A stretch of DNA of 64,000 nt from Galbitalea soli (GTDB taxonomy: Bacteria > Actinomycetota > Actinomycetes > Actinomycetales > Microbacteriaceae): assembly GCF_010686725.1 (NCBI RefSeq), contig NZ_JAAGWZ010000001.1, forward strand, positions 558,001-622,000, written 5' to 3'. Each line of letters starts with the position of its first letter. Position 1 is the first letter of the stretch. The position numbers and the translations under genes are program-made. Under the pieces are notes generated by a model. That model made no database searches and had not been told where the DNA came from. It saw only the letters and a program-made list of their open reading frames with translations. Of the stretch, positions 45,429 to 57,982 are shown in pieces.

Positions 45429-46853
45429 ATGTTCAGCGATTCTTCCGAGGTGCTCAAGTACATCAAGGACAACGACGTCAAGTTCCTTGATATCCGCTTC
45501 ACCGACCTTCCCGGTGTGCAGCAGCACTTCAACATCCCCGCCTCCACCGTCGACGAGGAGTTCTTCTCGGTCGGCCAGCTCTTCGACGGCTCGTCGATTC
45601 GCGGTTTCGCGAACATCCACGAGTCCGACATGCAGCTCATCCCGGACGTGACGACGGCCTACCTCGATCCGTTCCGCACGGAGAAGACGCTGATCATGGT
45701 CTTCGACATCTACAACCCGCGCAACGGGGAGATCTACCACCGCGACCCCCGCCAGGTCGCCAAGAAGGCGGAGAAGTACCTCGCGTCGACCGGAATCGCC
45801 GACACCGCGTACTTCGCCCCCGAGGCCGAGTTCTACATCTTCGATGACGTGCGCTACGAGGTGAAGCAGAACGGCAGCTTCTACTCCGTGGACTCCGACG
45901 AGGGCGCCTGGAACACCGGTCGGGTCGAGGAGGGCGGCAACCTCGCCAACAAGACCCCCTACAAGGGCGGTTACTTCCCGGTCAGCCCGGTCGACAAGCA
46001 GGCCGACCTTCGCGACGACATCAGCCTCAAGCTGATCGACGCGGGCCTCATCCTCGAGCGCGCGCACCACGAGGTGGGCACCGGTGGCCAGGCCGAGATC
46101 AACTACCGCTTCGACACGATGGTTCACGCGGCCGACGACATCCTCAAGTTCAAGTACATCGTCAAGAACACCGCGCTCGAGTGGGGCAAGGCGGCGACGT
46201 TCATGCCGAAGCCGCTGTTCGGCGACAACGGCTCGGGCATGCACACCCACCAGTCGCTGTGGAACGACGGCAAGCCGCTGTTCTACGACGAGAGCGGCTA
46301 CGGCGGCCTCTCCGACATTGCGCGCTGGTACATCGGCGGCCTCCTCAAGCACGCGCCCGCCGTGCTCGCGTTCACCAACCCGACGCTCAACTCCTACCGC
46401 CGGCTCATCCCCGGCTTCGAGGCACCCGTCAACCTGGTGTACTCGGCCGGCAACCGTTCGGCCTCGATCCGTATCCCGATCACGGGCACGAACCCGAAGG
46501 CGAAGCGCATCGAGTTCCGCGCGCCCGACGCCTCCGGCAACCCGTACCTCGCCTTCGCCGCGCAGCTGATGGCGGGCCTCGATGGCATCAAGAACAAGAT
46601 CGAGCCGCACGAGCCCGTCGACAAGGACCTCTACGAGCTTCCGCCCGAGGAGGCGAAGAACATCCCGCAGGTTCCCGGCTCGCTCGCCGAGGCGCTTGAC
46701 GCGCTCGAGGCCGACCACGAGTTCCTGACCGCCGGTGGAGTGTTCACGACCGACCTGATCGAGACCTGGATCGCGTACAAGCGCGAGAAGGAGATCATCC
46801 CGGCCGCGCAGCGCCCGCACCCGTTCGAGTACGAGCTGTACTTCTCGGTCTGA
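45429..46853 (+). CDS. glnA: glutamine synthetase, type I
   Basis: A 474-residue GSI-beta enzyme that makes glutamine from glutamate, ammonia and ATP. Signatures are [29 protein letters not shown], the metal site [10 protein letters not shown] and [12 protein letters not shown]. The adenylylation tyrosine is in [14 protein letters not shown], so the enzyme is a target of GlnE, encoded further along. The ATG has TGGAG upstream. The promoter carries a near-perfect GlnR box and the gene ends in a strong hairpin. Confidence 0.97.
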
Positions 46854-46993: not shown

Positions 46994-48373
46994 TCAGGCG
47001 GGCACGAACACGGGCCGGCCGGCCGTCGGCTGAGCCGATCGGCCGAGCGAGCGCACCGTCCATCCCGCCTGCTCCCACGCCGCCCGGTCGATGCAGTTTC
47101 GGGCGTCGATGACCGACGCCCCCTGCGCCAGGCCGAGCAGGCGCACCGGGTCGGCCGACACGAACTCCGGCCACTCGGTGAGCACGAGGACGACGTCGGC
47201 ATTCGTGACGGCCTCATCCGTCGAATCCGCGTAGCCCAGCGTCGGGAAGATCTTCTTGGCGGTCGTGCCGGCCTCGGGGTCGAACACGATCACCTGCGCC
47301 CCGCGCAGGTGGAGGGCCGCCGCGACGTTCAGTGCGGGCGAGTCGCGCACATCGTCGGTGTCGGGCTTGAACGCGGCGCCCAGGATGCCGATGCGCCGGT
47401 TCAGAACGGATCCCCCGAGCGCCTCGAGCGTGAGGTCAATCACCCGCTGGCGCTGCGCCATGTTGATCTCGTCGACCTGCTGCATGAGCGAGACGGCGGA
47501 GTGCGCTCCCAGCTCTCCCGAGCGATGCATGAGGGCGCGGATGTCCTTCGGCAGGCAGCCGCCCCCGAAGCCGAGCCCGGCGTTCAGGAACTGACGGCCG
47601 ATGCGGATGTCGTGACCGAGCGCATCCGCCAGGACGGTGACGTTCGCTCCCGCGGCCTCGCAGACCTCGGCGATCGCATTGATGAACGAGATCTTCGTGG
47701 CGAGGAACGCGTTCGCGCTCACCTTCACGAGTTCAGCGGTGGGCAGATCGCACACGATCACCGGGGTCCCGGTGGCGATCGGCACCGCGTAGACCTCCCG
47801 CATGATGGCCTCCGACGCGGCGGAGGTGCCGCCGATAACGATTCGGTCCGGCGTCAGGGTGTCGGCAACCGCTTTGCCCTCGCGCAGGAACTCCGGGTTC
47901 CAGATCAGTTCGGCGTGGATGCCCGACGGCAGATTGCTCTGAACCGCGACCCTGAGGCGCCCCGCCGTTCCCACCGGCACGGTCGACTTGCCGACGATGA
48001 GCCCGTCATGGGTGAGATTGCGCACGACCTCGACGGTCGCCGCCTCGACGTAGGAGGTGTTGGCCGCATTGCTGCCGCGCTGCTGCGGCGTACCGACGCA
48101 GATGAAGTGCACATCGCTGAGCGCGGTCGCCTCCGCCAGGTCGGTCGTGAAGCGGAGTCGGCCCGTCGACACGTGCTTGCGCAGCAGCTCGGGCAGTCCC
48201 GGTTCGAAGAACGGTACCTCGCCGATGGCCAGCGCCGCGACCTTGGCCGGGTCCGTGTCGACCCCGATCACCTCGAAGCCCATCTCCGCCATGGCGGCGG
48301 CGTGGGTCGCCCCCAGGTACCCGGTGCCGATCACGCTGATGCGCGGTGCCGGCGTGTCAGTGTTCTTTGCCAT
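46994..48373 (-). CDS. ugd: UDP-glucose 6-dehydrogenase
   Basis: A 459-residue NAD-dependent enzyme that oxidises UDP-glucose to UDP-glucuronate. The Rossmann motif is VIGTGYLGATHAAAMAEMG, the catalytic cysteine is in GFGGGCLPKD, and FLREGKAV and FKPDTDDVRDSP are also typical. I chose the ATG at 48373, 6 bp after AAGGAG. Two in-frame ATGs further upstream are less well placed. It is the last gene of a GT2-GH26-ugd unit and probably supplies the sugar donor for the synthase. Confidence 0.9.
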   Translation of the reverse strand: MAKNTDTPAPRISVIGTGYLGATHAAAMAEMGFEVIGVDTDPAKVAALAIGEVPFFEPGLPELLRKHVSTGRLRFTTDLAEATALSDVHFICVGTPQQRGSNAANTSYVEAATVEVVRNLTHDGLIVGKSTVPVGTAGRLRVAVQSNLPSGIHAELIWNPEFLREGKAVADTLTPDRIVIGGTSAASEAIMREVYAVPIATGTPVIVCDLPTAELVKVSANAFLATKISFINAIAEVCEAAGANVTVLADALGHDIRIGRQFLNAGLGFGGGCLPKDIRALMHRSGELGAHSAVSLMQQVDEINMAQRQRVIDLTLEALGGSVLNRRIGILGAAFKPDTDDVRDSPALNVAAALHLRGAQVIVFDPEAGTTAKKIFPTLGYADSTDEAVTNADVVLVLTEWPEFVSADPVRLLGLAQGASVIDARNCIDRAAWEQAGWTVRSLGRSAQPTAGRPVFVPA

Positions 48374-48406
48374 GCTCATCTCCTTTGCCTTCACGAAAAA
48401 TGCCGG

Positions 48407-49858
48407 TCATGATGTGGGTTTCAGGGCGAAGCCGTTCCCTGCGAGGTGGATGCCCGCGACGAAGGAGGCGAGCGTGTCGCTCCGGGAGTCGATGCGCCAG
48501 TCGTTCGTGGTGCGCTGCCCCTCGACGTAGGTGGTGACGGCCATGTTGAACCAGGCGAAGCCGATGATGTCGGAGTTCGCGGGATCGGCGAGACCGTTGA
48601 ACAGGCTCGTGATCCAGGTCGCCTTGTGGCCGCCTGTCTCCGACGCGCCGATCTCTGAGAGGAAGATCGGCTTCGAGGTGAGGGCGCGAAGCTCGTCGAG
48701 GCTCTTCTGGAAGGTGTATCGGAACGAGAAGTCGTTGTCGGGCTTGTAGGCGGGGCGCAGGTACCCGGAGAGCCCGACCCAGTCCACGTAGGCGTCGCCG
48801 GGGTACAGCGACTTCAGGTAGTCGAGGCTCTGGTGCGCGCTCGGCAGATTGTTCACGATGTTGGGTGACCAGATCCAGAACACGTACTTGTTGGCGCCCT
48901 CGGCCTGGAAGATGTCGTGCACGTGCTTCCACACCTGCACGTACTGACCCGCGCTGTTGCCGTTGATCGAGTTGCCGTGTCCGTCGTCCTCGACCCAGGG
49001 GTACCAGACCCCGTTCATCTCGTGGTCGAAGCGAATCCCCATCGGGAGTCCGTTCGCCACGATCGCTTTCGCGTAGCTCCGCAGGTAGCTGTCGTAGTTT
49101 CCAGCGAGGATGTCCGAGAGCTGGTAATCCGGTGCGGTCACCTCGTCGTTCCCCGCCTTGATCGGCCGGGACTCCCAGGTGAGGATCGGCAGGGTGCCGC
49201 GCTTCCACGCCCGCTGCACGGCATCCGCGCGGAACGTCTGGTCCCACCCGCCGAAGTATCCGACGACGTTGGGCTGTTCCCCGATCGCCGATGCCGTGGC
49301 GTCGTAGGTGGCCCAGTTGAAGGGCGCCTGCTCCGTGTACATGCCGAAGTAGCGACTGCTCGGGCGGGTGAGCGCCGCGAGGGTCGGCGCGGTGATCGGC
49401 GCGGGCGGGGGTGTCGTGTGCGTCGGCTTCGGGGTGGTGCGCGTCGGAGTCAATGACCCTCGCGCCGCAGCCGCAGCCGCTGCACTCGCCCGCGCGGCCG
49501 CCGCGGCGGTCGTCTGAGCCTCGAGCGCGCTCAATTTACTGGTGGCGGCCATGGCCTTGGCGGTCATCGCCGCGAGCTGCTCCTTGTTGGACGCGGCGCC
49601 GGCCTCGGTGACCGTCAGTTTCGCCTCGAGGGCGGCGATCTGGTTCTTCAGCCGGATCGTCTCCGCGTCGCTGTGACGAGCGGCGAGGGAGCTCCGCAGC
49701 TGAGCGATGGCGGAGGCGGCCGTGCCGGGGATGCTCGGCGAGGTCCACACGAGAATTCCGACGGTGACGAGGGCAATCACGAGTGCCGATGCCGCAGCGG
49801 CGGTCAGGCGGGAGTGGCGGCGCGTGCGCGTCCACCAGTGAGCGGATGACTTAGACAA
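48407..49858 (-). CDS. membrane-anchored GH26-family glycoside hydrolase
   Basis: A 483-residue protein with a short cytoplasmic N-terminus, one transmembrane helix (about 20-40), an alanine-rich coiled coil (about 48-130), a Thr/Pro linker, and a GH26-like barrel (about 160-475). The acid/base glutamate is in RFDHEMNGVWYPW and the nucleophile in PIFLSEIGAS. GH26 enzymes mostly cut beta-1,4-mannans. Exposed outside the membrane, it may trim or release a growing polymer. The start is a TTG overlapping the GT2 end, supported by GGAGG 9 bp before. Confidence 0.85.
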   Translation of the reverse strand: MSKSSAHWWTRTRRHSRLTAAAASALVIALVTVGILVWTSPSIPGTAASAIAQLRSSLAARHSDAETIRLKNQIAALEAKLTVTEAGAASNKEQLAAMTAKAMAATSKLSALEAQTTAAAAARASAAAAAAARGSLTPTRTTPKPTHTTPPPAPITAPTLAALTRPSSRYFGMYTEQAPFNWATYDATASAIGEQPNVVGYFGGWDQTFRADAVQRAWKRGTLPILTWESRPIKAGNDEVTAPDYQLSDILAGNYDSYLRSYAKAIVANGLPMGIRFDHEMNGVWYPWVEDDGHGNSINGNSAGQYVQVWKHVHDIFQAEGANKYVFWIWSPNIVNNLPSAHQSLDYLKSLYPGDAYVDWVGLSGYLRPAYKPDNDFSFRYTFQKSLDELRALTSKPIFLSEIGASETGGHKATWITSLFNGLADPANSDIIGFAWFNMAVTTYVEGQRTTNDWRIDSRSDTLASFVAGIHLAGNGFALKPTS

Positions 49859-51344
49859 TGAACATCGCCTCCAGAGCGAAGATCGCGATTCCGATCAGGT
49901 AGGGGAAGGCGGCCTTGGGGTTGAGGCGGCGCCGGGGAGCACGACTTGGAGCGACGGCGACCGCCGCCCTCGCCTGCACGGGAGCGGCCACCAGGAGCGC
50001 GCCCTCGGAGCGGTCACCGGGCGCCTCGAAGCGCAGAGAGTGCTCCCCCACGGATGAGCCGCCCGCGGCCTGCGCGAGCTCGAGTTCGTTCTGCGCACCA
50101 CCCGCGTAGGCCCCGGCCCGGGTACCCCAGCCGCTCGCGTGTCCCATGCGGAAGAACCCGATCAGCCGGATCGGCATGAGGAACGCGGTCGACACGATGA
50201 TGAAGAGCGGCAGTCGGAAGAAGTCGCTGGGCTTCTCGGCGAGGTGGCGCATCTGGCGGATGCCCATGCTCAGCACCGAGGAGAGGACCATGAGACCGAT
50301 GACCCACAACAGTCCGGTCTGCACGCCGTACTCCTTGAGGATTCCCTCGTAGAAGTTGTAGCCCTGGTGAGTGAGCGAGCGGTAGACCCAGCCCGCCGCG
50401 ACGCCGGCCAGCAGGAACGGGAGAAGGATGTCCATCACGAAGAACAGCGCGAGCAGCGGCGCGTGGCCGAGCATCCACGGCAGCATGCGCAGCGTGTTGT
50501 ACTGGCTTCCGCGCGCCCACCGGAGTTGCTGCTTGTAGAGCTTCTTGATCTGCAGCGGGGCATCCGTGTAGACGAGGCTCGTGTGCTGGTAGACCGTGCG
50601 GTAGCCCTCCTTGAGGGTCAGGTTGGTGAGCGTGCGGTCATCCGACACTTCGAGGAAGACGCCCATGAACTTCTCGGTCATGAACTTCTCCATGACCCGC
50701 ATGAGGATGCTGCGGCGGAAGGCGATCGTGCGACCCGGCAGGCAGCCAACCTGGCCGACGACGCTCTGCATGGGCATCGAGTAGAGCGCGCGGGAGTTCT
50801 CGAGCCAGTCCGCCCAGCGGGTGATCCAGCTGCGGGTGGGTTCGAGGATGCGCTGGCGGGTCGTCACTCCCCCGACCCGCTCGTCGGCGAACGGGCGCAC
50901 CAGTTCGGAGAGGGTGTTCTCGGTCCAGACGGTGTCGGAGTCGACCAGCACCGTGATGTCGCCGTTGGAGAGCTCGGTGCCGATCATGACGGCGTTGCGC
51001 TTGCCGGGGATCGGCGTGTGGACCCAGCGCACGAGGGGTGCGAACTCGTCGGAGATGCGCTCCAGCACCGGGTTCGGCTTGCCGTTGATGACGACGATGA
51101 TCTCGCCGGGACGCTGCTCCACCATTCGGGCCAGCACGTCACGGAACAGGTCCTCCGGCTCATCGACCACGGGGACGACGACGCTCGTCGTGCCCGTGTA
51201 CTCGCCGGTGTAGGGACGGTACCGTCGCGAGACGACGACCTTGATGATCCAGAGGGCCCAGATGATGGCCGAGTACACCGCGAACATGTAGATCTGCGGG
51301 TGGCCCTCGGCCAGGTGGCGGATCTGGAGAATGAAAATGAACAC
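49851..51344 (-). CDS. family 2 processive glycosyltransferase (hyaluronan-synthase-like)
   Basis: A 497-residue membrane synthase. One N-terminal transmembrane helix (MFAVYSAIIWALWIIKVVV) is followed by a GT-A domain with DITVLVDSDTVW (metal), EVSDDRTLTN (catalytic Asp) and the acceptor-side motif QQLRWARGSQ. About four C-terminal helices follow, for example LFFVMDILLPFLLAGVAAGW. The arrangement resembles hyaluronan and other synthase-dependent polysaccharide polymerases. I chose the GTG at 51344, which has AAGGGAA just upstream. The frame stays open further upstream. It heads the unit with GH26 and ugd. Confidence 0.85.
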   Translation of the reverse strand: MFIFILQIRHLAEGHPQIYMFAVYSAIIWALWIIKVVVSRRYRPYTGEYTGTTSVVVPVVDEPEDLFRDVLARMVEQRPGEIIVVINGKPNPVLERISDEFAPLVRWVHTPIPGKRNAVMIGTELSNGDITVLVDSDTVWTENTLSELVRPFADERVGGVTTRQRILEPTRSWITRWADWLENSRALYSMPMQSVVGQVGCLPGRTIAFRRSILMRVMEKFMTEKFMGVFLEVSDDRTLTNLTLKEGYRTVYQHTSLVYTDAPLQIKKLYKQQLRWARGSQYNTLRMLPWMLGHAPLLALFFVMDILLPFLLAGVAAGWVYRSLTHQGYNFYEGILKEYGVQTGLLWVIGLMVLSSVLSMGIRQMRHLAEKPSDFFRLPLFIIVSTAFLMPIRLIGFFRMGHASGWGTRAGAYAGGAQNELELAQAAGGSSVGEHSLRFEAPGDRSEGALLVAAPVQARAAVAVAPSRAPRRRLNPKAAFPYLIGIAIFALEAMFIV

Positions 51345-51856
51345 GTCGTTCCCTTCGCGGATGGTGGAGATGACTTCCGCGGCACTGGGGAACTCGTATG
51401 TTGCGTCGGGTTGCTTGAATACTGCCGGGGCACGGCGAGCGGTGCAATTGCCCCCTTTCGGGGGGCTTCGCGGGACCCGAGGGTGCCGGTCGGGCGTTCT
51501 GCCGACCGGAGGACGGCCCCGCGGGGATGCCCCGCCGAGCTCGTCGTGGCGGCACCGCGCCACTGCCAGCCGACTCAGGAAAAACGCAGATCATCGCCGG
51601 ATTTGCTGTAGCCGTGTACAGGACTGCGCAGGGCATCCACGGTAACGCGTACTCCTGTGCCGGGACGGGACGCGCCCCCAGAGCGGGGTACGCTCGTGCC
51701 CCATTTCGGGGTACACAATTTGATCGAAAAAAAGATTGCTCAGCCGCGCGAAACGGTCCCTCCGGGCGCGTCGCTCGGCGTGCAGCGCGCAGTGTTCCTC
51801 GCACCGCGGGGTCGTCGCGCCGCGCGCGCGGCACCGCGGAGACGCCCGCCAGGCGG
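51345..51856 (-). promoter_or_regulatory. 512-bp intergenic region, probable leader of the polysaccharide unit
   Basis: This is the longest gene-free stretch of the window. It has an AT-rich patch near 51712-51740, two GGGGTAC copies 23 bp apart (51685-51691, 51708-51714), and a perfect 8-bp hairpin CCGGTCGG/CCGACCGG (51486-51509). I see no convincing coding frame with a ribosome site, and no riboswitch class I can name. It probably holds the promoter and a long 5' leader of the GT2 gene. Confidence 0.5.
51486..51509 (-). repeat. hairpin in the GT2 leader
   Basis: CCGGTCGG (51486-51493) and CCGACCGG (51502-51509) are perfect arms with an 8-nt loop, about 140 bp upstream of the GT2 start. It could be part of an attenuator or a structured leader. 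Confidence 0.5.
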
Positions 51857-54796
51857 TCAGGCCGTCGTGGGTCGGGGGATCGCAGACACCCCGTAGAAGC
51901 GGCGCTCGAACACCTGGCGGGCGAGTCGTGTCGTCCTCAGGTAGTCCTCCTCGAGCGCGCCCGCTGACCCGGGTGGGTACTCCATGAGGCGCGCGACGCC
52001 CTCGAGCGCCTGACGCTCTGTCGGCAGCACGTCGGCGGTCTTCGCCGTCCAGAGCGTCATCGCCGAGCGGGCCCGCGACGCGATGATCCACGCATCGTGC
52101 AGCTTCTTGGCGTCCGCAGCGGGAATGAGCCCGGCGGCCTCGGCAACGGCGAGGGCGTCGAGCGTCGAGGTCGTACGAAGGCCCGGGATGCTCGCCGCGT
52201 GCTGCAGTTGCAGCAGCTGCACGAACCACTCGACGTCGCTCAGTGATCCTCGGCCGAGTTTGAGATGCCGCGAGGGATCAGCGCCCTGCGGCAGACGCTC
52301 CGACTCGACCCGCGCCTTGATGCGTTTGACCTCGCGCACGCCCTGTTCCGCAATCGTCGCGGGGTACCGCACCTCGTCGGCGAGGTGCTCGAAGTCGCGC
52401 AACAGACCCTCGTCGCCCACGACGCCGCGCGCGCGCAGCAGGGCCTGGGCCTCCCAGGTCAGCGACCATCGCCGGTAGTAGGCGCGGTAGCTGTCCAGGG
52501 ACCGCACGACCGCGCCGTTCTTCCCCTCCGGCCGCAGCCCGATGTCGAGGTCGAGCGGCAGGCGGAGGTCTTCGGTCAGCCGACTGAGCGAGGCGACGAT
52601 CTGCTCGGAGCGCGATTGCGCCTCTTCGCCCGTGGCTGTCGTCGCGCGATAGACGTAGACGACGTCCGCGTCCGAGCCGAAGCCGAGCTCCCCTCCGCCG
52701 TAGCGACCCATCGCGATGATGCCGAACTCGAGACCATCATCCTCACTGTGCACGAGCGAGAGCACGCCGGTGAGGATCGCCGTGGTGATGTCGCTGAGGG
52801 CGCGGCCGAGCTCCTCCACGGAGATGAACCCGAGGATGCCCGCGATGGCGACCCGCAGCACCTCGCGTCGGCGGGCGGTGCGGAGGGCGAGGGCCGCCGC
52901 ATCCACGTCATCCCGGTGCCGCGACACCGTCGCGCGCGTCTCGTCGAGCAGCTGGGCGAGCGGCCGCGGCCGCAGCTCGTCTTCGTTCTCGAGCCATGCC
53001 GCGCCCTCCGGGATGCGCTCGAGGAGGGTGCCGACGAACTTCGAGCCGGAGAGCACGCTGGTCAGCCGCTGCGCGGCTCCCGAGGAGTCGCGCAGCATGC
53101 GCAGGAACCAGTAGGCCTCGCCGAGGTCGTCGCTGAGTCTGCGGAACGCCAGAAGTCCGTGGTCGGGGTCCGCCCCGTCGGCGAACCACCCCAGCATGAC
53201 CGGAAGCAGGGTGCGCTGGATCGTGGCGCGGCGCGACACTCCGCCCGTGAGCGCGGCGATGTGATGGAGGGCGCCCTTCGGGTCGCGGAAACCGATGGCC
53301 GCGAGACGCGCCTCGGCCTGCGTGCTGGTGAGGCTGAGTTCGTCGCCGGGCAACGCCGCGACGGCGCTGAGCAATGGCCGGTAGAACAGCCGCTCGTGGA
53401 GATTGCGCACCGCGTGCTTGGTGCGCTGCCACGACGCGGAGAGCTCGGCGGCCGTCGCGTAGAGACCCGTGGAGCGAGCCAGAACGCGCACCGCCTCGGC
53501 ATCGCGCGGCATGAGGTGCGTTCGAGAGAGACGGCTGAGCTGCAGCCGGTGCTCGAGCAGGCGCAGAAAGCGGTAGTCGCCCGCGAACTCGGCCGATTCG
53601 ACCCGGCCGATGTATCCCTGTGCCGCGAGCGACACGAGGGCGGGGAGCGTGGCCTGCTGGCGCACCTCGGGATCGGTCTGCCCGTGCACGAGCTGGAGCA
53701 ACTGGATGGTGAACTCGATGTCGCGAAGACCGCCGGGACCGAGCTTGAGCTGGATGTCGCGCTCGTCTGCGGGGATGTTCTCGGTGACGCGCTCGCGCAT
53801 CCGCTGCACCGACTCGACGAAGTTCTCGCGGGAGGCGCTCGTCCAGACCATCGGCGCGAGCGCCGCGACGTAGCGCTCCCCCAGCTCGAGATCGCCCGCG
53901 AGCGGCCGGGCCTTGAGAAGAGCCTGGAACTCCCAGCTCTTGGCCCAGCGCTCGTAGTACGCGACGTGCGACTCGAGGCTGCGCACGAGTGCGCCGTCTT
54001 TGCCCTCAGGCCGCAGATTCGCGTCGACCTCCCAGAGCGCCGGCTCGATGGCGAGCTCCTGGATGCCCCGTGCCGTCTGCATCGCGAGCTTGGTGGCGAT
54101 ATCGACCGCGCGACCCGTTTCGAGCCCGCCGGTCGCCTCCGCGACGAAGATCACGTCGACGTCGCTCACGTAGTTCAGCTCGCGCGCGCCGGCCTTGCCC
54201 ATTCCGATGATCGCGAGCCGGGTGCGCTCCACGTCCGCGGCGGGGAAGCGCACCTCGCGGCGGGCGACCTCCAGCGAGGCGTCCAGCGCCGCGCCGGCGA
54301 GGTCGGCCAACACCATCGTGACGTCGGAGACGGCCGCGAGCGGATCCGGATGGGCGAGATCCCACGCCGCCAGCGCGGCGACTCGGCGCCGGTACCGCAC
54401 GCGGAGTGCCGTATAGGCCGCGTCGCCGCTGAGGCCGGCGACGGAGGAGACCAGATCATCGCGCAGTTCGTCGCGACTCGGGATGCCCGTGATGGGCGCC
54501 TCGAGGCAGGCCAGCTCCTCGGGGTGCCGATGGAAGAACTCGGCCAGACCGCGCGAGGCGCCGAGCACCCGGATGAGACGCGCCGCCGCGTCGCCCGCGC
54601 CGAGCAGGCGCGCGACCTCGGCCGGGGCGTGCTCGTCGAGGCGGAGAAGCAGGTCGAGTGCCTGATCGGGATCGGCCGCGGCCGCGAAGTGCGGCACGAC
54701 CTCTTCCGGGAACCGCTCGAGGGCGTCGCGCGAGGCGCTCAACTCGGTGAAACCGAGCCGGGCCAGTTCAGTCAGCGTTGTCTGAAGGCGAGGCAT
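51857..54796 (-). CDS. glnE: glutamine synthetase adenylyltransferase/adenylyl-removing enzyme
   Basis: A 979-residue two-headed enzyme. The N-terminal removing domain has IIGMGKAGARELNYVSDVDV and the C-terminal adenylylating domain has IIAMGRYGGGELGFGSDADV, both nucleotidyltransferase motifs. Helical GlnD-linker-type domains follow each. It adds AMP to and removes it from the GlnA tyrosine. The ATG at 54796 fits relatives (start near MPRLQTTLTELARLGF). It is 26 bp downstream of glnA2 and probably co-transcribed. The usual neighbour glnA is here separated by a polysaccharide block. Confidence 0.92.
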   Translation of the reverse strand: MPRLQTTLTELARLGFTELSASRDALERFPEEVVPHFAAAADPDQALDLLLRLDEHAPAEVARLLGAGDAAARLIRVLGASRGLAEFFHRHPEELACLEAPITGIPSRDELRDDLVSSVAGLSGDAAYTALRVRYRRRVAALAAWDLAHPDPLAAVSDVTMVLADLAGAALDASLEVARREVRFPAADVERTRLAIIGMGKAGARELNYVSDVDVIFVAEATGGLETGRAVDIATKLAMQTARGIQELAIEPALWEVDANLRPEGKDGALVRSLESHVAYYERWAKSWEFQALLKARPLAGDLELGERYVAALAPMVWTSASRENFVESVQRMRERVTENIPADERDIQLKLGPGGLRDIEFTIQLLQLVHGQTDPEVRQQATLPALVSLAAQGYIGRVESAEFAGDYRFLRLLEHRLQLSRLSRTHLMPRDAEAVRVLARSTGLYATAAELSASWQRTKHAVRNLHERLFYRPLLSAVAALPGDELSLTSTQAEARLAAIGFRDPKGALHHIAALTGGVSRRATIQRTLLPVMLGWFADGADPDHGLLAFRRLSDDLGEAYWFLRMLRDSSGAAQRLTSVLSGSKFVGTLLERIPEGAAWLENEDELRPRPLAQLLDETRATVSRHRDDVDAAALALRTARRREVLRVAIAGILGFISVEELGRALSDITTAILTGVLSLVHSEDDGLEFGIIAMGRYGGGELGFGSDADVVYVYRATTATGEEAQSRSEQIVASLSRLTEDLRLPLDLDIGLRPEGKNGAVVRSLDSYRAYYRRWSLTWEAQALLRARGVVGDEGLLRDFEHLADEVRYPATIAEQGVREVKRIKARVESERLPQGADPSRHLKLGRGSLSDVEWFVQLLQLQHAASIPGLRTTSTLDALAVAEAAGLIPAADAKKLHDAWIIASRARSAMTLWTAKTADVLPTERQALEGVARLMEYPPGSAGALEEDYLRTTRLARQVFERRFYGVSAIPRPTTA

Positions 54797-54822
54797 GGTG
54801 CGGTCGACGGATCCCTGTTCGA

Positions 54823-56160
54823 TCACAGGATCTCGAGGTTGCTCTCCAACTCGTAGGGCGTGACCTGGGCGCGGTACTCGCGCCAGTCGCGGCGCTTGTT
54901 GAGCAGCACGTAGTTGAACACCTGTTCGCCCAGGGTCTCCGCCACAAGCTCGGAGTCCTCCATGAGCGACAGCGCGTGGTCGAGGCTGGCGGGAAGCTGG
55001 TTGTAGCCGAGGGCCCGGCGCTCGGCGTCGGTCAGGGTCCAGACGTTGTCCTCCGCCTCGGGCGGAAGCTCGTACTCCTCCTCGATGCCCTTGAGCCCCG
55101 CGGCGAGCAGCAACGAGTAGGCGAGGTAGGGGTTCGCGGCGGAGTCGATGGCCCGGTACTCCACTCGCGAGCTCTGCCCCTTGTTGGGCTTGTAGAGAGG
55201 AACGCGCACGAGCGCGGAGCGGTTGTTGTGACCCCAGGTCACGAAGCTCGGCGCTTCGTCGCCGCCCCACAGCCGCTTGTAGCTGTTGACGAACTGGTTG
55301 GTCACCGCGGTGATCTCGGGCGCGTGGCGCAGGAGCCCCGCGACGAACTGGCGGCCGATCTTGGAGAGCTGGTACTGGTTGCCGCCGTCGAAGAAGGCAT
55401 TGACGTCGCCCTCGAAGAGCGACATGTGCGTGTGCATGCCCGAACCGGGATGACCGGACAGCGGCTTCGGCATGAAGGTGGCGTAGACGCCCTGCTCGAT
55501 CGCCACCTCCTTGATGACCGTGCGAAAGGTCATGATGTTGTCGGCGGTCGTGAGCGCGTCGGCGTAGCGGAGGTCGATCTCGTTCTGACCGGGACCCGCC
55601 TCGTGGTGGCTGAACTCGACCGAGATGCCCAGGTCTTCGAGCATCCGCACCGAGCGCCGACGGAAGTCGTGGGCGGTGCCCCCGGGCACGTTGTCGAAGT
55701 ACCCAGCGGAATCGACGGGCTCCGGCGCTCCGTTCTTCACCTTGCTCGACTTGAGGAGGTAGAACTCGATCTCGGGGTGCGTGTAGAAGGTGAAACCGCG
55801 GTCGGCGGCCTTCGCGAGCGTGCGCTTGAGCACGTTGCGGGGATCGGCCACCGCGGGCTGGCCGTCAGGCGTCATGATGTCGCAGAACATGCGGGCGGTC
55901 GGATCGATCTCGCCCCGCCACGGAAGGATCTGGAAGGTGGTCGGATCCGGGTGCGCGAGAACGTCGGCCTCGTAGGAGCGGGTGAGTCCCTCGATCGCGG
56001 AGCCGTCGAAGCCGAGACCCTCGTTGAAGGCGCCCTCCACCTCGGCCGGAGCGATCGCGACCGACTTGAGCGTGCCCACGACGTCGGTGAACCAGAGCCG
56101 CACGAACTTGATGCCGCGCTCTTCGATGGTGCGAAGAACGAAGTCGCGCTGCTTATCCAC
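54823..56160 (-). CDS. glnA2: glutamine synthetase, type I-alpha
   Basis: A 445-residue second glutamine synthetase. The start is a GTG at 56158-56160, beginning VDKQRDFVLRT as in actinobacterial GlnA2, with AGGGAG upstream. Motifs are GFDGSAIEGLTRSYEAD, ETHPEIEFYLL-like THPEIEFYLLKSS, and GHPGSGMHTHMSLFEG for metal binding. The adenylylation region is shortened. It is in one unit with glnE. I find no GlnR box upstream, unlike glnA, so control is different. Confidence 0.92.
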   Translation of the reverse strand: MDKQRDFVLRTIEERGIKFVRLWFTDVVGTLKSVAIAPAEVEGAFNEGLGFDGSAIEGLTRSYEADVLAHPDPTTFQILPWRGEIDPTARMFCDIMTPDGQPAVADPRNVLKRTLAKAADRGFTFYTHPEIEFYLLKSSKVKNGAPEPVDSAGYFDNVPGGTAHDFRRRSVRMLEDLGISVEFSHHEAGPGQNEIDLRYADALTTADNIMTFRTVIKEVAIEQGVYATFMPKPLSGHPGSGMHTHMSLFEGDVNAFFDGGNQYQLSKIGRQFVAGLLRHAPEITAVTNQFVNSYKRLWGGDEAPSFVTWGHNNRSALVRVPLYKPNKGQSSRVEYRAIDSAANPYLAYSLLLAAGLKGIEEEYELPPEAEDNVWTLTDAERRALGYNQLPASLDHALSLMEDSELVAETLGEQVFNYVLLNKRRDWREYRAQVTPYELESNLEIL

Positions 56161-56169
56161 GGAGGCTCC

Positions 56170-56209
56170 CTGCGATGGTGAAACGGGTACTGCGATGGCG
56201 GAAACGGTG
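56170..56209. repeat. imperfect 20-bp tandem repeat between glnA2 and nadE
   Basis: Two units, CTGCGATGGTGAAACGGGTA and CTGCGATGGCGGAAACGGTG, lie head to tail 10 bp upstream of the glnA2 start and upstream of the nadE promoter. They may be binding sites for a shared regulator. Confidence 0.6.
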
Positions 56210-56238
56210 CTGAATCCGAGCCGTTTCGCTCGCGCTAT

Positions 56239-56244
56239 TAGGCT
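56239..56244 (+). promoter_or_regulatory. -10 element, leaderless start of nadE
   Basis: TAGGCT lies 7 bp before the nadE ATG, with no ribosome site. Confidence 0.5.
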
Positions 56245-56251
56245 AGTGGCT

Positions 56252-57982
56252 ATGCCCCGACTTCGCTTGGCACTCGCCCAGACGAACCCCGTGGTGGGCG
56301 ACCTCGCGGGGAATTCGACCCAGATCATGGAGGCCGCGAGGCGCGCGTGGGAGTCCGGAGCCGACATCGTCGCGGTCGGCGAGATGGCCCTGAGCGGCTA
56401 CCCGATCGAGGACCTCGCCGCTCGTCCGAGCTTCCTGCGGGCGAGCCGTGCGGCGGTCGAGGCACTCGCCACGCGGCTGGAGGCGGAGGGGCTCGGTGAG
56501 CTCGTCGTCGTGGTCGGTCATCCGGACGGGCCCTTCGAGCCGCGGCTGCTCGGCTCCAGCAACGCGCCCACCGCGATCGCGCAGAACCGCGCGAGCGTGC
56601 TGCAGCACGGGCGGGTGCGGGCGCAGTACTCGAAGCACCACCTGCCGAACTACTCCGTGTTCGACGAGTACCGCATCTTCATCCCCGGCGACGAACTGCT
56701 CGTGCTGCGGATCAAAGGCGTCGACGTCGCCCTCGTCATCTGCGAAGACCTCTGGCGCGACGGCGGCCCGGTCAACCGGGTCGTGAAGGCGGACGCGGGC
56801 CTGCTGCTCGTCATCAACGCGTCGCCGTTCGAGCGCGACAAAGACGAGGTGCGCCTCCCGCTCGTCACCCGACGCGCCGTCGAGAACAGCGCGATCGTGG
56901 CCTACGTCAACATCGTGGGCGGCCAAGACGACCTCATCTTCGACGGCGACAGCGTCATCGTCGACGGCTCGGGTTCGATCCTGGCGCGCGCCCCGCAGTG
57001 GCAACCCCACCTTCTCGTCGCCGACCTCGATGTCGCCGCCGCGACCCTCGACGAGCTGCCCGAGCACGTGACGCGGGTGACCCTCGACGATCCCGCACCG
57101 ACCACGCCGCCGATCGGGCTCGACATCGCGACGCTGCCAGATGACCGACAGCAGCTCTGGGACGCGCTCGTTCTGGGCCTGCGCGACTACGTCGGCAAGA
57201 ACGGCTTCCCCTCGGTCGTGCTCGGTGTCTCGGGCGGGATCGACTCCGCGGTCTGCGCCGCGATTGCCGCGGACGCGATCGGTGCCGACCGCGTGTACGG
57301 GGTGAGCATGCCGTCCCGGTGGAGCTCGGAGCACTCGCGCGGCGATGCCGACGTGCTCGCCGAGAACATCGGCTTCCACTACTCGGTGGAACCTATCGCC
57401 GAGCTCGTGCAGCCGGTCGAGGATCAACTGGCGCTGAGCGGGCTGGCGGCCGAGAATCTGCAGGCGCGCATCCGGGGCATCATCCTCATGGCGAAGTCGA
57501 ACATGGACGGCCACCTCGTGCTCACCACGGGAAACAAGAGCGAGCTCTCGGTCGGCTACTCGACCATCTACGGCGACTCCGCGGGCGGATTCGCTCCCAT
57601 CAAAGACGTGCCGAAGCTGCTCGTGTGGGAGCTCGCCCGCTGGCGCAATGAGGCGGCCGTCGCGCGCGGCGAGGTGCCGCCGATCCCCCGCAACTCCATC
57701 GAGAAGCCGCCGAGCGCGGAGCTGCGCCCCGACCAGACCGACCAGGACACCCTTCCGCCCTACGAGGTGCTCGACGCGATCCTCGACGCCTACGTGAGTC
57801 GCAACCTGGGCCAGGAGGATGTCGTCGCGCTCGGATTCGACCCCGACACCGTCGACTTCGTGACGCAGCTCGTGGACCGCTCGGAGTGGAAGCGACGCCA
57901 GGGGGCGATCGGCCCCAAGATCAGCGGGATGGCCTTCGGCCGCGACCGCCGACTCCCGATCACCTACCGTCCCACCGTCTGA
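56252..57982 (+). CDS. nadE: glutamine-dependent NAD+ synthetase
   Basis: A 576-residue two-domain enzyme for the last step of NAD synthesis. The N-terminal nitrilase-type amidase (about 1-260) has [13 protein letters not shown] (Glu), [12 protein letters not shown] (Lys) and [14 protein letters not shown] (Cys). The C-terminal synthetase has the P-loop [17 protein letters not shown] and [17 protein letters not shown]. The glutaminase half is complete. The gene is divergent from glnA2, giving a glutamine maker beside a glutamine user. Confidence 0.95.

Follow-up and report, generated by a model that had tools for sequence, protein, structure and literature searches.

We describe a three-gene block of Galbitalea soli that appears to be a minimal, self-contained system for making an acidic polysaccharide and then trimming or releasing it. 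The block lies in a window of 64,000 nucleotides (the whole stretch of DNA that was analysed), where genes for a family 2 glycosyltransferase (GT2), a family 26 glycoside hydrolase (GH26) and a UDP-glucose 6-dehydrogenase-like protein (UGD) form, in that order, one minus-strand unit between glnE and glnA1 (Table 1). Synthase-dependent systems are recognised by a membrane GT2 encoded together with precursor and processing enzymes, and the order and adjacency of the three genes follow that pattern. We suggest, at a probability of roughly two in three, that the system is synthase-dependent and that its product is a glucuronate polymer with alternating or mixed beta-1,3 and beta-1,4 links, which the tethered GH26 would trim or release. 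The conserved pairing of synthase and hydrolase suggests a self-trimmed acidic slime or capsule.

The association of the three genes is real and exceeds chance. When genome contigs were scanned with GH26 alone, 25 loci were recovered, titled as Microbacteriaceae genera, Cellulomonas, Cellulosimicrobium, or unplaced metagenome-assembled genomes (MAGs) of Micrococcales or Actinomycetota. A GT2 gene stands directly upstream of GH26 in 24 of these, and the remaining locus (L039) begins at GH26. UGD follows GH26 in 17 of the 20 loci that have more than 1 kb downstream, the other five contigs ending too early. A search of 60 genomes of the family with GT2 gave a close orthologue (E < 1e-200) in 13, that of G. 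soli included; after these came a single divergent match (G008, E 1.8e-150) and then a gap down to E 2.8e-59. All 12 other genomes of this close group carry the full triplet, and in 11 of them it adjoins glnE. The two samples overlap: judged by length and gene positions, G053 is the same contig as L025, and G004 (L063) the same as L019. Among 59 genomes of the order, a GT2 match past 1e-80 was seen only in G. soli and in G028. The triplet is also borne by a Curtobacterium plasmid, and in a Cellulosimicrobium locus (L038) one UGD gene is flanked by two GT2-GH26 pairs. A preliminary description of this DNA had proposed searching for such triplets elsewhere; the three genes are not scattered, being adjacent and in order in the 17 testable loci and the 12 family genomes just counted.

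Profile matches agree with the names which that description gave to the three products. The GT2 protein matches PF13641 at 81 bits (cut-off 27), and NodC is its top NCBIfam profile (105 bits against a cut-off of 550); among proteins of solved structure, hyaluronan synthases (HAS) alone match it at E<=0.001. Hydrophobic helices lie near residues 20-38, 297-315, 344-362, 374-398 and 479-497, and the motifs GKR, DSDT, SDDRTLTN, QQLRW and WGTR make up a set common to HAS (GKR, DSDT, (S/G)DDRxLTN, QQxRW, WGTR). No domain binding cyclic di-GMP (c-di-GMP) was seen in GT2 by Pfam. Judged from its sequence, we call the protein HAS-like and do not file it as a HAS, because the HAS motifs are held in common but PGRTI replaces GGPLG. 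Among plasmid matches to GT2, the best after Curtobacterium are glycosyltransferases of Lactococcus and Enterococcus. In the one Lactococcus plasmid record examined (L096:4663-7080), a nucleotide sugar dehydrogenase gene comes directly before that of a HAS-like glycosyltransferase, which matches a CvHAS stretch at 35.8% and a frog HAS1 stretch at 39%.

The hydrolase matches PF02156 at 41.8 bits (cut-off 20.2). A short N-terminal tail with WW is followed by a single predicted membrane helix (residues 13-39, approximately), a coiled-coil-like helix (46-128) and a (beta/alpha)-barrel (157-481). The structure model (predicted local distance difference test, pLDDT, 76) matches the fold of the lichenase CtLic26A with Z 26.8 and a root-mean-square deviation of 2.5 over 266 residues, all others reaching Z 23.1 or less. 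Among proteins of solved structure, CtLic26A is also the best sequence match, at 90 bits against 38 bits for the top mannanase. The GH26 identity first proposed therefore holds, with the refinement that the protein is closer to lichenase than to mannanases by both sequence and fold. The two catalytic glutamates on which the preliminary description had made its proposal hang, E280 and E402 (acid/base and nucleophile), are both present and are kept in 38 of 38 distinct GH26 places, with the histidine of the HE motif in 36 and a glutamine in the other two.

One active-site motif sets this group of hydrolases apart. An arginine, R368, is found in 38/38 GH26 proteins of the block clade and in 0/10 comparators, which include CtLic26A, the two other GH26 proteins of the G. 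soli genome, and those of two divergent HAS-type GT2-GH26 pairs, L066 and L085. The block protein has SGYxR where CtLic26A has DGYNW, so that the +1 Asp and the following Asn-Trp are replaced. In BoMan26B, Asp261 lies at the +1 and Tyr263 at the -1 subsite (PMC6556568); matching on the (D/S)GY motif pairs them with S364 and Y366, respectively, and R368 stands two residues past Y366. The change from Asp to Ser or Thr is also present in L066, L085 and the third GH26 of the G. soli genome; the arginine is not. We read R368, near the -1/+1 subsites, as a probable adaptation to a carboxylated substrate, since losing the +1 acid and gaining an arginine would take negative charge from the site and add positive charge, a change that a substrate with a carboxylate would require. 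Because SGYxR replaces DGYNW, the protein, while nearest to lichenase, is not filed as one.

The third gene would supply the precursor. Its product matches the NDP-sugar dehydrogenase profile TIGR03026 at 419 bits (cut-off 189.8) and has three Pfam domains; the best equivalog model is TuaD, at 381.6 bits and below its cut-off of 700, and models of UDP-N-acetylmannosamine dehydrogenase reach 158-163 bits. UGD was present in 14/14 genomes tested. G. soli has two further copies, 56 and 59% identical to the block UGD, and in the five relatives among the 14 that carry the full block (G004, G009, G011, G071 and G074) the block UGD scores 73-82% and the generic UGD 55-58%. These comparisons mark the block UGD as a copy additional to the generic ones. 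In two loci (L026 and L077) it is followed by a nucleotidyltransferase gene (cluster c32; Pfam NTP_transferase for L026), which we take, from its sequence features, to be GalU-like. A dedicated UGD, with a GalU-like gene in two loci, would fit the glucuronate-containing polymer that had been proposed from the first. Two further arrangements were observed. The block is present twice in Leifsonia poae, once (L026) with UGD and the GalU-like gene and away from the gln site, and once (L030) at the gln site and without UGD. In a Microbacteriaceae MAG (L027:2433-4747), two UGD genes stand in tandem after GT2-GH26.

We suggest that the system could work as follows. UGD would make UDP-glucuronate, which GT2 would polymerise with a second UDP-sugar, either UDP-glucose or UDP-N-acetylglucosamine, passing the chain across the membrane; the chain would carry alternating or mixed beta-1,3 and beta-1,4 links. 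GH26, anchored beside GT2 by its membrane helix and long stalk, would cut the polymer outside the membrane, and the cut would either set chain length or free the polymer from the cell. Hyaluronan and the pneumococcal type 3 polymer contain glucuronate and have links that alternate between beta-1,3 and beta-1,4 (PMC12220298), and lichenase is described as cutting a beta-1,4 bond after a beta-1,3 bond (PMC10374906). The two fit together, which makes an alternating glucuronate polymer our best guess. The compact system of the preliminary description is thus supported as far as the gene association and the intact glutamates go, while its chemistry (polymer composition, linkage and the substrate of GH26) and the role of GH26 in trimming or release are what we infer.

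Several observations weigh against this proposal. GT2 is just 25-29% identical to solved HAS stretches, its GGPLG-type motif after a conserved Cys is replaced (CLPGRTIAF, against CVGGPLGAY or CISGPLGMY), and its structure model (pLDDT 47) is too poor for use. UGD is missing after GH26 in three of the 20 testable loci (L030, L032 and L039), and some of the 38 GH26 proteins that bear R368 have no UGD adjacent to them. R368 is also confined to a single clade, where common descent could be enough to account for it. The divergent pairs L066 and L085 also have no adjacent UGD, although their genomes do hold a generic one. In the wider samples, GT2 adjoins GH26 in three of nine plasmid contexts and in the other six it does not (nine of 15 records were examined), and GT2 stands in the GH26 flanks of two of 14 loci from other genomes of the phylum sample, with none in the other 12.

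A more far-reaching proposal can be put forward only tentatively: the block may be an actinobacterial uronan system, in which GH26 evolved into a polymer-specific endo-glucuronoglycanase that, having lost the +1 Asp and gained Arg368, reads the glucuronate in the product of its own synthase. The block would then be one branch of a wider theme, in which unrelated GT2 subtypes in Actinomycetota, Deinococcota and haloarchaea have a dedicated GH26 as a chain-length or release factor.

Other roles for the hydrolase have to be considered. A gene arrangement of the same kind is found in synthase operons with a degrading enzyme, and this arrangement, together with the predicted membrane tether that holds GH26 near the synthase, would also suit a homeostasis enzyme that clears stalled or misplaced polymer from between membrane and wall. 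AlgL provides the precedent for alginate, having been shown to clear the periplasm (PMC8829089). We nevertheless think such a role unlikely here, as these are single-membrane bacteria, in which a closed periplasm needing clearance would be less obvious. GH26 might instead act as a transglycosylase, joining the polymer to another glycan of the wall by attachment or crosslinking, a reaction that the retaining mechanism of clan GH-A allows (PMC6556568) and for which the stalk is long enough to reach the wall; the catalytic residues, however, are those of an ordinary hydrolase, and we consider this role improbable. Finally, GH26 could be a forager on beta-glycans from plants or the environment, with the synthase next to it by accident. 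Known GH26 enzymes are reported to be mainly mannanases (PMC13390465), and in the actinobacterial and plasmid samples the majority of GH26 genes have no GT2 next to them. We nonetheless consider this reading very improbable, given the gene overlap, the synteny in 24 of 25 loci, the existence of a plasmid that carries the complete unit, the co-divergence with GT2 and the invariant substitution in the active-site motif.

We return to the proposed synthase-dependent system and to its place in the genome. The preliminary description had the block inserted between glnA and glnE and suggested comparing gene order in relatives. Indeed, the block adjoins glnE and glnA1, and both its presence and its absence at the glnE site were seen among relatives. 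We checked 30 genomes of the family that have no block and found glnE in 29. In 17 of these, a convergent glnA1 lies 81-904 bp from glnE (from the edge of one match to that of the other), and the space between them contains none of GT2, GH26 and UGD; in the other 12, no glnA1 lies inside the 1.5 kb examined. Three of the four block-less congeners show this empty site, and GH26 was found in one of five congeners in a sample of 40 relatives. Distances were correlated over 16 of the 17 glnE-site loci, L064 having been dropped because the wrong glnA paralogue was taken there. Against glnE, the correlation was r 0.87 for GT2, 0.80 for GH26 and 0.77 for UGD; within the block it was 0.82 for GT2-GH26, 0.69 for GT2-UGD and 0.76 for GH26-UGD (0/2000 permutations in each case). 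Because block distances track glnE, the block appears to have been passed down at the glnE site for a long time within a single family. The location given at the outset is therefore correct, but a recent insertion at glnE is unsupported; long residence with repeated losses, plus movement on plasmids, would fit better.

The three genes, overlapping or near-adjacent, and the leader before them lie where they were first placed (Table 1). The GT2 stop (49853-49851) and the TTG start of GH26 (49858-49856) share an overlap of 8 nt. The GTG of UGD at 48394 is 12 nt past the GH26 stop; UGD more probably starts from the ATG at 48373, which is preceded by AAAGGAG. Alignment supports 51344 as the GT2 start, since ATG, GTG or TTG stands exactly there in all 34 aligned loci.

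Table 1. Features of the block, its leader and its flanks, in window coordinates.
Feature	Position	Strand	Remarks
GT2 synthase gene	49851-51344	minus	497 aa, HAS-like
GH26 hydrolase gene	48407-49858	minus	483 aa
UGD gene	46994-48394	minus	466 aa from GTG
Leader between glnE and GT2 start	51345-51856	minus	512 bp
Dyad TCCCCAGTGCCGCGGA (TCCYC-N6-GYGGA)	51376-51391	minus	conserved non-coding, about 47 nt before GT2 start
TGTACCCC element	51708-51715	minus	about 360-430 nt before GT2 in relatives
glnA (called glnA1), flank	45429-46853	plus	convergent neighbour
glnE, flank	51857-54838	minus	start as in query; open frame extends to 55270
glnA2, flank	54823-56367	minus	open reading frame

Two short elements recur in the leader. 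Of 22 Microbacteriaceae loci, the ones from which its pattern was derived, 21 have the dyad at 47-93 nt before GT2; the pattern occurred in 0/200 shuffles of the last 100 nt, and the 12 other leaders that were examined lack it. Because its distance to the GT2 start varies, the dyad is not coding. An 18-base form of the pattern gave 3 to 15 matches per genome in 16 genomes, where no regulon was found for it; the TCCCCA form gave eight matches, seven of them at the block. The TGTACCCC element occurs in 16 of 34 leaders, against about 0.5 expected from base composition. Rfam gave no match in the leader. When 14 leaders were aligned and folded, just five pairs formed over the dyad, at -3.1 kcal/mol, and both partners of one pair had changed. 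A DNA dyad or other element was preferred over a regulatory RNA.

The pairing of GT2 with GH26 recurs elsewhere with other GT2 types, in the G. soli genome itself, in Deinococcus taeanensis and in Salinirubellus. The second pair of G. soli belongs to a region at about 1,064,700-1,069,600 of C1 (L069:4723-9574), the GT2-GH26 part being at about 1,066,900-1,069,600. There, an acyltransferase-SGNH gene lies upstream of a cellulose-synthase-like GT2 gene, the stop of which overlaps the start of GH26 in TGATG; the opposite strand carries a gene that looks like GH16. In L066, acyltransferase-SGNH, GT2 and GH26 genes are consecutive. A Deinococcus taeanensis plasmid (L090:4693-8774) has GH16, a membrane protein of 270 aa with no Pfam family, and overlapping GT2 and GH26 genes, apparently a synthase unit without UGD. 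On a plasmid of the haloarchaeon Salinirubellus (L093:6641-8768), the GT2 and GH26 genes share 8 nt. A general rule by which GH26 implies a GT2 neighbour is rejected by the plasmid and phylum-sample counts (3/9 and 2/14).

Known systems share parts of this design. In the operons of class I HAS (hasABC) and in the pneumococcal type 3 capsule genes (cps3D-cps3S), a HAS-like GT2 has its own UGD. The block resembles them in this respect, in the motifs GKR, DSDT, DDRxLTN, QQxRW and WGTR, and in the GalU-like gene of two loci; it differs in the low identity of its GT2, in PGRTI for GGPLG, in a hydrophobic C-terminal helix, in being actinobacterial and in having GH26 between synthase and UGD. CtLic26A of Clostridium thermocellum, the best match to GH26 in sequence and structure, shares its acid/base and nucleophile glutamates, but the block enzyme has SGYxR, a membrane anchor with a stalk, and a synthase as its neighbour. 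In the bcsZ, algL, pgaB and pelA operons too, a degrading enzyme is encoded with the synthase and a trimming or clearance role is proposed; their products belong to enzyme families other than GH26, whereas the block uses a GH26 with a membrane stalk and a GT2 in which Pfam detects no c-di-GMP-binding domain.

In the open-access literature (most subscription papers were outside coverage) we found no GT2-GH26-UGD system, the nearest case being WpsE, a GH26 encoded in the wps-1 exopolysaccharide cluster of Actinoplanes missouriensis, deletion of which is reported to give abnormal as well as normal sporangia (PMC13390465). Both are GH26 enzymes encoded inside actinobacterial exopolysaccharide clusters; in contrast to the block, wps-1, with 11 wps genes and sulfotransferases, is described as Wzx/Wzy-dependent and is not synthase-dependent, and according to its authors no GH26-containing Wzx/Wzy cluster had previously been characterised (PMC13390465). 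A review of capsules attributes chain length in synthase systems to precursor levels, and its main text does not use the term "glycoside hydrolase" (PMC12220298).

The block offers a concrete candidate mechanism, open to testing, by which the one-protein synthase of a bacterium with a single membrane could control its polymer and release it. Enzymes of the GH26 type are usually known from the digestion of plant glycans. If our proposal is right, the block would add a substrate class to GH26, and may serve as a source of a novel acidic polysaccharide together with an enzyme for cleaving it.

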